Source: Propioniciclava sp.
GTDB lineage: Bacteria > Actinomycetota > Actinomycetes > Propionibacteriales > Propionibacteriaceae
DNA: 35,106 bases
Reading direction: 5' to 3'
Assembly: GCF_029977985.1 (NCBI RefSeq)
Contig: NZ_JARKOT010000200.1
Location: forward strand, 1-35,106
This document shows, piece by piece, positions 23,506 to 26,372 of the stretch (position 1 is the first letter of the stretch; each line of letters begins with the position of its first letter). The position numbers and the translations under genes were made by a program. The notes beneath the pieces are model-generated. The model saw only the letters and a program-made list of their open reading frames with translations, was not told the DNA's origin and did not search any database.

Positions 23506-23555
23506 GGGCTCATCGTTCCACAAGCGTGGACGCCGGGTCTGCCAGACTGCACACC

Positions 23556-24455
23556 GTGAACGCTCCCCGCACGCTGCTGTTGGACACGGCGTCGTTGTAC
23601 TTCCGCGCCTACCACGGGCTGCCCGATTCGCTGGTCGGTGCGGACGGGCGTCCGGTCAACGCTGTCCGCGGCCTGCTCGACTTCATCGCCCGGTTCGTGA
23701 CCGAGTACGCCCCCGACCGGCTGGCGTGCTGTTGGGACGACGACTGGCGGCCGGCCTGGCGCGTCGACCTCGTACCCACCTACAAGGCGCACCGCGTCGC
23801 GCACGGCAACGTCGAGCAGGTGCCCGAGGCGCTGACCGCGCAGGTGCCCCTCATCCGTGGGGTGCTCGACGCCTTGGGTCTCGCCGTCGTCGGGGTGCCC
23901 GGCTACGAGGCCGACGACGTGATCGCCACGCTGGCCGCCGGGGCGCCCGGACCGGTCGACGTGGTCACCGGCGACCGCGACCTGTTCCAGTTGGTCTCCG
24001 ACGCCGACGGCGTCCGGGTGCTCTACGTGGCCCGGGGCGTCGCGAAGCACGAGCGGGTGGACGACGCCTGGCTGTCGGCCAAGTACGGCATCACGGGGGC
24101 CGGCTACGTGGACTTCGCCGTGCTGCGCGGCGACCCCTCCGACGGGCTACCGGGGGTGAAGGGGATCGGGGAGAAGACGGCGGCGTCCTTGGTGGCCCGT
24201 TACGGCGATCTCGACGGCATCCTCGCCGCCCGCGACCGGCTGTCCCCCGCCGTGGCCCGCGCGCTGGGGGCGTCCATCGACTACCTCGGCCCCGCCAGCG
24301 AGGTCGTCCGGGCCGCCCGCGACCTCGACCTCGGGACGCCGGATCTCACCCTTCCTTCGTCCCCGGCCCGGCCCGAGGAGTTCGCCCAGCTCGCTGAGTT
24401 GCTCAACCTCGGCGGGAGCGCGGAACGCATCCTGAAGGCCCTCCGGGAGCACTGA
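23556..24455 (+). CDS. stand-alone 5'-3' exonuclease (PolA N-domain/FEN-like)
   Basis: A 299-residue flap-endonuclease-like nuclease without a polymerase part. Acidic metal ligands are visible in LLLDTASLYFRAYHG, CCWDDDWRP, YEADDVIATLA and VVTGDRDLFQLV. The helix-hairpin-helix SDGLPGVKGIGEKTAASLV binds DNA, and RVDLVPTYKAHR is the arch region. Such proteins remove 5' flaps or RNA primers. GTG 23556 is preferred to GTG 23526 because the catalytic strand begins 6 residues later. Its stop abuts the inverted-repeat cassette at 24456. Confidence 0.9.
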   Translation: MNAPRTLLLDTASLYFRAYHGLPDSLVGADGRPVNAVRGLLDFIARFVTEYAPDRLACCWDDDWRPAWRVDLVPTYKAHRVAHGNVEQVPEALTAQVPLIRGVLDALGLAVVGVPGYEADDVIATLAAGAPGPVDVVTGDRDLFQLVSDADGVRVLYVARGVAKHERVDDAWLSAKYGITGAGYVDFAVLRGDPSDGLPGVKGIGEKTAASLVARYGDLDGILAARDRLSPAVARALGASIDYLGPASEVVRAARDLDLGTPDLTLPSSPARPEEFAQLAELLNLGGSAERILKALREH

Positions 24456-24570
24456 TCCACGCCGGATAGGTGCAGAAACGCCGCTTCGGCCGGGAAGTAC
24501 GCCGGATAGGTGCCAATACTCCGGGTCTGCGCGGCGTATGTGCACCTAAGCGGCGTCGCTGGAATTGAAG
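24456..24570. repeat. left inverted repeat of the AbiEi-like cassette
   Basis: Starting directly after the exonuclease stop codon, this segment matches the reverse complement of 25615-25762 in ordered blocks. These include GAAACGCCGCTT (24475-24486), GCCGGGAAGTACGCCG (24489-24504) and AAGCGGCGTCGCTGGAATT (24548-24566). It carries three full copies of a 16-bp module, ACGCCGNNTRGGTGCM, at 24459 (+), 24499 (+) and 24541-24556 (-). Confidence 0.75.
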
Positions 24571-24597
24571 TCGCCACGAACCTCACCCAACCCGGGG

Positions 24598-24625
24598 TTA
24601 TCCCCAGAAATGCGTGTCATCCACA
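24598..24625 (+). promoter_or_regulatory. two DnaA-box-like sequences
   Basis: TTATCCCCA (24598-24606) and TCATCCACA (24617-24625) each differ by one base from the DnaA consensus TTATCCACA. They are in the same orientation, 19 bp apart, in the leader of the AbiEi-like gene. They may only be chance or regulatory sites; no other origin features are seen. Confidence 0.25.
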
Positions 24626-24677
24626 GGTCACGAAACTCGTTCGGCGATTTCGTCCTCGGGGATGCTTGGCTGACCGC

Positions 24678-25589
24678 ATGGATGACTGGATTCTGCGGCA
24701 CACCGAACAACTGCGTGCGGATGGCTGGAGCAAACGCGACCTCGACAACGCCCTCAAGGCCGGCACGCTCGCGCGGGTGGTGCGCGGGGTGATCCGGACG
24801 GGTGGCGAGGTGGCTCAAGAAGCAGCGCACCTGGTGCGGGCGCGCGCGGTGCTGATGCGCCAGAGCACCAGTGTGCTCTCCCACGAGAGCGCCGCCTTGG
24901 TGCACCGTCTCCCGATCCGGCTGGTCGACCCACCCCTCGTCCATCTCACCGCAGCCCCGCCCGCGCACGCCCGGGTTCGCTCGGGCTACCACGTGCACGT
25001 CGCCCCGCTCGAGGCCGACGATCTGGTCACCGTCAACGGTCTGCGCGTGACCTCCGTGGCGCGCACCGTCGCCGATGTGGCCCGTTCGGCTCCCTACGCC
25101 TGGGGAGTCGCCATGGCTGACCGCGGTCTCGCCCGCCGCATTACCCGGGAGGAACTGCTGGCGCGGGCCGAGTCCGTCGGGAAGAGGACGGGTGCCGGGC
25201 GGGTTCGGCAGGTCATTGCCTTCGCCGATGCCCGCGCCGAATCCCCGGCCGAGTCGGCGAGCAGGGTCACGATGGCCCGGGCCGGCCTGCCCGCCCCCAC
25301 CCTTCAGTTCGAGGTCAGGGACGCCGCTGGTTGGCTCGCCACCTGCGACTTCGCCTGGGAGGAGCACCGGGTGGTCGGTGAGGTCGACGGCAAGGCGAAG
25401 TTCGGGCGTCTCCTCAAGGCGGGCGACACCCCCGAGGACGCCGCCCATCGACAGGTCATGAGGGACGAGGCACTGCGCCAGGCGGGATGGTGGCCGTGCC
25501 ACTGGTCCTGGGAGGAGGCGTGGGACGTCCGCAAGCTGACCACGAAGCTCGAAGGGGCCTTCCGCGCGGCGGAGAACTTGCCCCGCTGA
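24678..25589 (+). CDS. AbiEi-like N-terminus fused to a DUF559/Vsr-like nuclease domain
   Basis: A 303-residue protein. The N-terminal part resembles the winged helix of type IV antitoxin AbiEi (DGWSKRDLDNALKAGTLARV, then a VLSHESAALVHRLP core). Residues about 195-290 look like the very-short-patch-repair/DUF559 restriction fold. Candidate catalytic acids are in ESPAESASR, CDFAWEE and VGEVDGKAKFGR, with the terminal RDEALRQAGWWPCHWSW strand. Such genes are common and multi-copy in actinobacteria, and their true function is unproven. No AbiEii-like toxin partner is adjacent. ATG 24678 is the first codon of the fold. It is flanked on both sides by inverted modular repeats. Confidence 0.8.
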   Translation: MDDWILRHTEQLRADGWSKRDLDNALKAGTLARVVRGVIRTGGEVAQEAAHLVRARAVLMRQSTSVLSHESAALVHRLPIRLVDPPLVHLTAAPPAHARVRSGYHVHVAPLEADDLVTVNGLRVTSVARTVADVARSAPYAWGVAMADRGLARRITREELLARAESVGKRTGAGRVRQVIAFADARAESPAESASRVTMARAGLPAPTLQFEVRDAAGWLATCDFAWEEHRVVGEVDGKAKFGRLLKAGDTPEDAAHRQVMRDEALRQAGWWPCHWSWEEAWDVRKLTTKLEGAFRAAENLPR

Positions 25590-25614
25590 GTGGTGCCGGC
25601 GGCTTCGGGGCCCC

Positions 25615-25762
25615 CTTCAACTCCAGCGACAATTTCAGCGACGCCGCTTGGGCGCACGTACGCCGCGTCTGCGCGGCATACGTGCGCTTAGGCGGCGTAC
25701 TTCCCGGCGGAAGCGGCGCTTCTGCACCCAAGCGGCGTTTCAGCACCCATCCGGCGTGCATC
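25615..25762. repeat. right inverted repeat of the AbiEi-like cassette
   Basis: It matches the left repeat (24456-24570) in reverse complement with a 30-bp insertion of extra modules. Shared blocks are AATTTCAGCGACGCCGCTT (25631-25649, one mismatch to the left copy), CGGCGTACTTCCCGGC (25693-25708), AAGCGGCGTTTC (25730-25741) and GCACCCATCCGGCGT (25743-25757). Four modules lie here: 25641 (+), 25684 (-), 25723 (-) and 25742 (-). It runs into the metW stop codon (25761-25763). Confidence 0.75.
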
Positions 25763-26372
25763 AGCCCGCGGACTGCGGGCACAGCACGTACACTGCTGCC
25801 CCGGCGGCCAGGTTGGGGATGCGGCCGTACATGCGGAGGCGGCGTCCGGTCTGGGTGTAGGTGAACCGGCGCTCGATGGTGAGACCCTGACGGGCGAAGA
25901 GGTCCTCCAGATCGGCCAGCGTGGTGAACCGGAGGTTGGGCGTCTCGTACCACGGGTACGGGAGTTCCTTGCTCACCGGCATCCGACCCCGCAGGAGGCG
26001 CAGCCGGTTCCGGTAGTAGCCGAAGTTCGGCACCGACACGATGAGCCGCTCCCCCACGCGCGCCATGCCGGCGAGCACGCGGGCGGGTTCGAGCATCGTC
26101 TGCAGGGTGCGCGACAGCACGACCCAGTCGTAGGAGCGGTCGGCCAGGTCGTCGAGCGCGGCCGGAATGTCGCGTTCCAGCACGGGAACCCCCCGCCGGA
26201 TCGCCGCCAGCACGGCGTTCGGGTCGATCTCGACACCCGTGCCCGCGCAGCCCTTCTCGTCGATCAGCTGGCGCAGCAGATCGCCCTGGCCGCAGCCGAG
26301 GTCCAACACCCGGGACGCCACAGGGATCTGGTCGGCGACGAGGGCGAGGTCAGGACGCAGGAACGCGCTCAC
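25761..26372 (-). CDS. metW: methionine biosynthesis protein MetW
   Basis: A 203-residue Rossmann methyltransferase-like protein that works with MetX in homoserine acylation in many bacteria. Motif I is VLDLGCGQGDLL. The family signatures SYDWVVLSRTLQTM, SVPNFGYYRNRLRLL and PYPWYETPNLRFTTL are all present. The GTG start overlaps the metX stop (GTGA). It is the last gene of thpR-metY-metX-metW. Its 3' end touches the right repeat of the AbiEi-like cassette, so its terminator may lie in, or have been displaced by, that repeat. Confidence 0.94.
   Translation of the reverse strand: MSAFLRPDLALVADQIPVASRVLDLGCGQGDLLRQLIDEKGCAGTGVEIDPNAVLAAIRRGVPVLERDIPAALDDLADRSYDWVVLSRTLQTMLEPARVLAGMARVGERLIVSVPNFGYYRNRLRLLRGRMPVSKELPYPWYETPNLRFTTLADLEDLFARQGLTIERRFTYTQTGRRLRMYGRIPNLAAGAAVYVLCPQSAG

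Follow-up and report, generated by a model that had tools for sequence, protein, structure and literature searches.

A putative AbiEi-nuclease gene flanked by inverted copies of its own dispersed hairpin in Propioniciclava, a candidate REPtron-like unit

A contig of Propioniciclava sp. (NZ_JARKOT010000200.1, positions 1 to 35,106; this whole stretch of 35,106 nucleotides is called the window below) carries what is probably a REPtron-like unit: a gene for a fused DNA-binding and nuclease protein lies between inverted copies of its own hairpin, solo copies of which are scattered, and the protein would be what spreads the hairpins. We put the probability of this reading at roughly two in three. 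Comparison of sequences shows the architecture and its recurrence, the match between gene and repeat, the dispersal and empty sites of the repeats and conserved nuclease-like residues in the protein; a role of the enzyme in spreading hairpins is inferred.

The locus and its dispersed hairpin

The unit lies between two genes that we take to be exo and metW, following general knowledge and an earlier sequence-only reading of this DNA. The stop codon of exo ends at 24455 and that of metW is at 25761 on the opposite strand; the space separating them holds a left repeat, the AbiEi-nuclease gene and an inverted right repeat (Table 1). The two repeats are related through three pairs of inverted arms, at 24459-24567 and 25630-25738 (109 bp, 79% complementary), 24452-24489 and 25727-25764 (38 bp, 89%) and 24555-24570 and 25615-25630 (16 bp, 94%), and the two 500-bp flanks of the gene match each other in blastn with an E of 2e-23. 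The arms and this match confirm the order of left repeat, gene and inverted right repeat given in the sequence-only reading, which had further stated that these parts fill the space exactly and share blocks of 12-19 bp. Both details need correction, as 107 bp remain between the left repeat and the start codon and 25 bp between the stop codon and the right repeat, and the repeats are longer than such blocks, having the 109-bp arms and a 58-bp hairpin each. In both repeats the hairpin has 27-bp arms and a 4-nt loop, and one or two half-arm modules lie outward of it.

Table 1. Features of the unit and its two edges, in window positions
Feature	Positions	Strand	Description
Left repeat	24456-24570	+	Half-arm module 24459-24490, 58-bp hairpin 24499-24556, inner end 24555-24570
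Left hairpin core, 58 bp	24499-24556	+	27-bp arms, TCTG loop; in alignment of 21 copies
AbiEi-nuclease gene, 303 aa	24678-25589	+	AbiEi-like part ~9-170, putative Vsr/EDxHD-like part ~190-300
Right repeat, inverted	25615-25762	-	Inner end 25615-25630, hairpin 25641-25698, outer modules 25699-25762
Right hairpin core, 58 bp	25641-25698	.	In alignment of 21 copies; pair counts
5'-3' exonuclease-like gene (exo)	23526-24455	+	Longest ORF, true start perhaps further in; one edge of insertion site
metW	25761-26372	-	Other edge of insertion site

Inspection by eye revealed neither a target-site duplication at the ends of the unit nor a common insertion motif, and within the window no AbiEii nucleotidyltransferase partner adjoins the gene, its neighbours being exo and metW. 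Rfam matched the repeat only far below gathering scores, to microRNA families; we regard these matches as chance fits to a long hairpin. Integron sites of the attC type, judged from the sequence against the familiar motif, were considered and dropped.

Searching the draft genome (296 contigs, 6.5% contamination) with the repeat yielded 38 matches at E<=1. By hand count these represent 19 places beyond the window and a further, weak one on contig C224; a query with the whole unit added a 28-bp match on C6. The copies have the hairpin in common and vary in module number, and C51 carries two in the same orientation. An ORF heuristic places 13 of the 18 hairpins tested in this genome between ORFs, while the other five overlap a possibly spurious ORF call; several solo copies sit between convergent genes. 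At none of the 19 places does a second inverted copy enclose a gene, although some of them are near contig ends, where a partner could be missed. The sequence-only reading had proposed a non-autonomous cassette with exchangeable cargo; further repeat copies do exist in this genome, but none was found around other cargo.

Outside this genome, searches of 12 congeners (E<=1e-3) and of plasmids and phages (1e-5) did not recover the repeat. An exact repeat pattern also found nothing in genome_contigs and viral_contigs, from which this or very near genomes are perhaps absent; the pattern detects 11 of the 20 own loci tested, and similar families elsewhere should therefore have shown.

We aligned 21 copies of the hairpin, leaving out one truncated copy (L028). 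Pairing holds in 84.3% of cells, compared with 27-45% in slid versions of the alignment and 82.6% in shuffles, 7 of 500 of which were as high. The covariation score was 0.122 against 0.091, with one shuffle of 500 as high. Covariation alone is modest support for the hairpin, because 55 of 500 shuffles had as many pairs changed on both sides and 198 of 500 as many further pair types. No GTAG or CGTC 5' tag tetranucleotide is evident by eye at the hairpin foot in these 21 copies.

Two observations concern individual copies. The truncated one (L028, G000:C182:42800) breaks off within the hairpin, and the unrelated sequence that follows has an open frame, which looks like the insertion of another element. 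Three solo copies (L004, L016 and L027) have common sequence beyond the hairpin, which suggests a larger duplicated unit.

The protein and its homologues

Residues 9-170 of the protein match AbiEi profiles in a defence profile library (best E 9e-20). Pfam AbiEi_4 is matched at 0.01 by 19 of 40 family members, the window protein itself reaching it only at 0.08. In Foldseek, a structure model (pLDDT 92.1, pTM 0.88) matched AbiEi 6y8q (E 5e-6), the I-Bth0305I domain 3r3p (probability 0.99, TM 0.69 by target, with a poor E of 0.16) and Vsr 1cw0 (probability 0.95, again with a poor E of 0.19); judging from length and secondary structure, the latter two matches would fall on the C-terminal part. There the family has a conserved nuclease-like set E-Q-D-ExDG-K. 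Among 40 aligned members, chosen from 76 intact ones, A72, E192, Q210, D224, E235, D237, G238, K241 and R262 are invariant, while conservation across all 76 is 91-100% at the E, Q, D, E, D, G, K and R positions, and 27 members, mostly named, keep the same residue set. From the model and these profiles, the protein looks like an AbiEi-like part fused to a putative Vsr/EDxHD-like nuclease part. The sequence-only reading had called it nuclease-like, in agreement with the C-terminal matches and conserved residues.

Pfam DUF559 (PF04480) was not matched by the window protein or, at 0.01, by the 40 members, and PHROGs, NCBIfam and a sequence profile search of solved structures gave no match. A Y1 transposase was matched neither in the window protein nor in the 40 members, and PF01797 (Y1) had no match in the genome of origin, in a search whose control matched in 10 of 14 genomes. 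The closest paralogue in the same genome is 40% identical to the window protein.

The gene family is present in 45 of the 57 genomes searched, the genome of origin included. At each homologue locus the 500 bp upstream of the gene were compared with the 500 bp downstream of it. A repeat common to both flanks was found at 86 of 115 non-redundant loci of Actinomycetota, and it was inverted at 78 of them. By subset, before removal of duplicates, it was present at 24/31 loci in the first set (22 inverted), 38/54 in a further set (34 inverted) and 28/36 in the named set (25 inverted). By comparison, a common repeat occurred in 3 of 59 control segments, similar in span and taken from the named loci, and at 3 of 30 metW loci, one being inverted in either control. 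Six duplicates were removed to reach 115 (L088, L162, L163, L167, L169 and L174); the test omits L074, L134, L140, L159, L161 and L198, with less than 150 bp of flank, and L142, with no tblastn hit, and L155 served as context only.

At 63 loci (L159 included) the median distance is 102 bp from the end of the upstream repeat to the predicted start codon, and 19 bp from the stop codon to the downstream repeat; the hairpins of homologues are often 50-70 bp or longer. Named hosts with such flanks include Tessaracoccus, Propioniciclava, Acidipropionibacterium, Geodermatophilus, Gordonia and Williamsia, as well as Rhodococcoides, Agreia, Knoellia and Olsenella. No common flank repeat was detected at 29 of the 115 loci, among them L010, the nearest paralogue in the genome of origin, and 7 of 10 further paralogues in genome G018.

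In the genome of origin (G000), another gene, that of L071 (C233, gene 853-1788), is flanked by 66-bp hairpins that are 92% alike and of another sequence; it matches Pfam AbiEi_4 and DUF559 and has no clear similarity to the window protein (BLASTP E 1.1). From this locus, the hairpin-flanked design may reach beyond close homologues. The paralogue L011 of the same genome (C18, gene 1354-2271) has modular flank repeats in direct rather than inverted orientation and a tandem array of ~19-bp units upstream of the gene. In Acidipropionibacterium thoenii (L184) the two flanking hairpins have 61 identical bases in common, likewise in direct orientation, which suggests recent copying or conversion of hairpins.

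Across genomes, each gene is tied to its own repeat family, with the repeats dispersed extragenically. Paralogues within one genome have repeats that are alike in 2 of 73 pairs, through weak matches of 19 bp and 46 bp. Among the matches listed, the only cross-lineage ones noticed are between G034 and G052, of one genus. The flank repeat was found elsewhere in its own genome for at least 14 of 16 genomes tested, with no place elsewhere among the matches listed for G002 and G015; these 16 were drawn from 22 first-set genomes with flank repeats, leaving out G003, G007, G014, G021, G028 and G033. In one genome (G025), six of nine paralogues were tested and proved to have six separate repeat families, with 2, 3, 9, 9, 3 and 2 places elsewhere by hand count; those left out were L112, which has no flank repeat, and L115 and L120, with 18 and 28 bp in common. 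All 16 solo copies sampled from G009 and G027 fold as hairpins, and 14 of them are intergenic by the ORF heuristic. TGCA is found close to the centre of the hairpin in 33 of 137 arms, the figure for off-centre windows being 95 of 1105; as a universal loop motif it is only a lead, chosen post hoc as one of twelve motifs counted.

Occupied and empty sites in relatives

In 8 of 12 congeners (G004 and G006-G012) exo and metW sit side by side, their hits 2-137 bp apart and no gene in between. On this comparison the AbiEi-nuclease unit at exo-metW is an insertion, as the sequence-only reading had proposed. That reading had also pointed to related genomes as a place to look for the repeats; the 12 congeners gave no repeat match, but the orthologous junction is empty in eight of them. 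The G001 junction has ~340 bp of other sequence, and the fetched loci of G003 and G005 contain no exo hit. The junction in G002 (L049, 2080-3230) holds a different ORF of 220 aa that lies between short repeats and matches nothing in Pfam or PADLOC; this is an independent event at the same place. In another genus, the gene in the exo-metW gap of L066 (2101-2544) matches a Pfam HNH endonuclease (4e-9), and genes similar to it by eye occupy the gap in L054, L055, L060, L061 and L064, again from other genera. The junction may be a site that genes of this kind prefer.

Solo copies were treated in the same manner. Ten of the 19 solo places, chosen for coding flanks, were compared with three relatives by flank queries, and six of the ten (L017, L018, L019, L022, L025 and L037) correspond to a site without the repeat in a relative, where 17-90 bp separate the flank matches as against 208-343 bp in the genome of origin. 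Against this pattern, two of the sites have longer spacers in another relative, L018 in G005 (~0.5 kb) and L022 in G011 (~1.1 kb), and the flanks of the L031 site are ~4 kb apart in G005. For L014, L021, L031 and L036, no adjacent pair of flank hits was found in the three relatives.

Relation to known systems and competing explanations

The closest known systems are REPtrons, that is RAYT (TnpA-REP) genes with REPs, REPINs or BIMEs, and also TIRtrons with TIRYTs. According to three papers (PMC3733652, PMC6006769, PMC3116915), a REPtron is a single-copy RAYT gene flanked by REPs that also have dispersed extragenic copies, each RAYT has its own REP family, and REPtrons are not thought to move as a unit. 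One large class, the CGTC REPs, is described in this literature as apparently having no dedicated transposase. The unit described here is similar in that a gene is flanked by inverted palindromes, one gene goes with one repeat family, copies are dispersed extragenically, and several genes occur in one genome, each with its own repeat. It differs in its protein, which is not a Y1 HUH transposase, and in its hairpins, which are often longer. In the sample of PMC6006769, high-G+C Actinobacteridae are stated to have only subclass 1.1 (IS200-type) Y1 members, unlike the present actinobacterial system. The defining Y1 enzyme was not found in the genome of origin, and we therefore speak of a REPtron analogue and not of a REPtron. 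To our knowledge, extragenic palindromes with a dedicated enzyme are known only from Y1 transposases.

Other resemblances are partial. The N-terminal part is like the AbiEi antitoxin of the AbiE type IV toxin-antitoxin system, in its profiles and in its match to 6y8q; the protein differs in its nuclease-like C-terminal domain, and no AbiEii partner gene lies in the window. The C-terminal part resembles the Vsr / EDxHD I-Bth0305I group of the PD-(D/E)XK fold, in its fold match and in its E, D, ExD, K set; unlike members of that group, the protein is fused to an AbiEi-like part and its gene is flanked by cognate hairpins. DUF559 is set apart by its Pfam model, which neither the window protein nor the 40 members match. 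Insertion sequences and MITEs differ in their target-site duplications and near-identical copies, neither of which was seen for the present unit. BOX-type repeats are, like these, hairpins with a variable number of direct modules, and we know of no cognate flanked gene for them. No title or abstract opening in our literature search, which mostly did not cover subscription journals and preprints, describes AbiEi/DUF559 genes flanked by palindromic repeats.

Most probably the AbiEi-like part would recognise the cognate hairpin, either as duplex or extruded, and the Vsr/EDxHD-like part would nick or cut DNA there or at the target. Repair or replication would then add a hairpin copy to a further intergenic site. 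Hairpins would in this way spread in trans, whereas the gene of the protein would stay single-copy and diverge together with them.

The main rival holds that the repeats are binding sites, through which the AbiEi-like part controls its own gene, and that the dispersed copies serve as a regulon, insulators or terminators; the nuclease part would have another target or police cruciform DNA. The same association of gene and repeat would arise from a regulator that has operator-like repeats, and the AbiEi-like N-terminal part speaks for it, as the promoters of bona fide AbiEi antitoxins contain inverted repeats to which the antitoxin binds. So do the upstream repeat copy, ~100 bp before the start codon, and the several solo copies between convergent genes, where terminators are expected. 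Autoregulation, however, has no need of the second copy just downstream of the stop codon, and copies that are so many, yet restricted to one lineage and absent from orthologous sites, are not what a conserved regulon predicts; the strong conservation of the nuclease residues also counts against this explanation, which we consider unlikely. A purely incidental association, with repeat-rich intergenic regions that happen to host such genes, could appeal to the abundance of repeats in these genomes. It is hardly credible given the excess of flank repeats at homologue loci over both controls, the different repeats of paralogues, and an expectation by hand arithmetic of ~0.2 chance pairs within 1.3 kb for 21 copies in 3.1 Mb.

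Movement of gene and repeats together, as in a transposon-like or homing cassette, was the view of the sequence-only reading. The exo-metW junctions without the unit, the G002 junction with its different ORF between repeats, and the homing-endonuclease-like fold match are all in its favour. Yet solo repeats outnumber the gene, no target-site duplication was seen by eye at the ends, and the distance to the closest paralogue argues against a unit copied as a whole, so that we find this explanation improbable; a cassette with exchangeable cargo is not supported either, as no second inverted copy was seen around a gene at the 19 other places. A toxin-antitoxin or defence module, with the hairpins as RNA partners of the protein, is more doubtful still: the defence profile library includes the AbiEi-like domain and the repeats have strong predicted folds, but no AbiEii toxin gene adjoins within the window, and dispersed intergenic solo copies would be unusual for an antitoxin RNA. 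The defence role suggested in the sequence-only reading loses ground for the same reason, since only the AbiEi-like part resembles a defence component. Its proposal is thus partly supported: the observation is confirmed and the interpretation needs changing, as the gene appears to be cognate to the repeat and not its cargo.

The REPtron-like reading would have consequences beyond this locus. A hairpin-flanked arrangement has already been reported for unrelated transposase-like enzymes; here a putative nuclease would take the same position. We are inclined, with some hesitation, to see here a second, independent kind of REP-type system, in which a large actinobacterial AbiEi-nuclease family may multiply its own hairpins by cut-and-repair, unrelated to HUH single-strand transposition. 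If this is true, a widespread family of actinobacterial genes that has no curated name would gain a function, lineage-specific hairpin repeats would gain a source, and the spread of such repeats would become testable with matched enzyme-repeat pairs, of which a single genome (G025) offers six.
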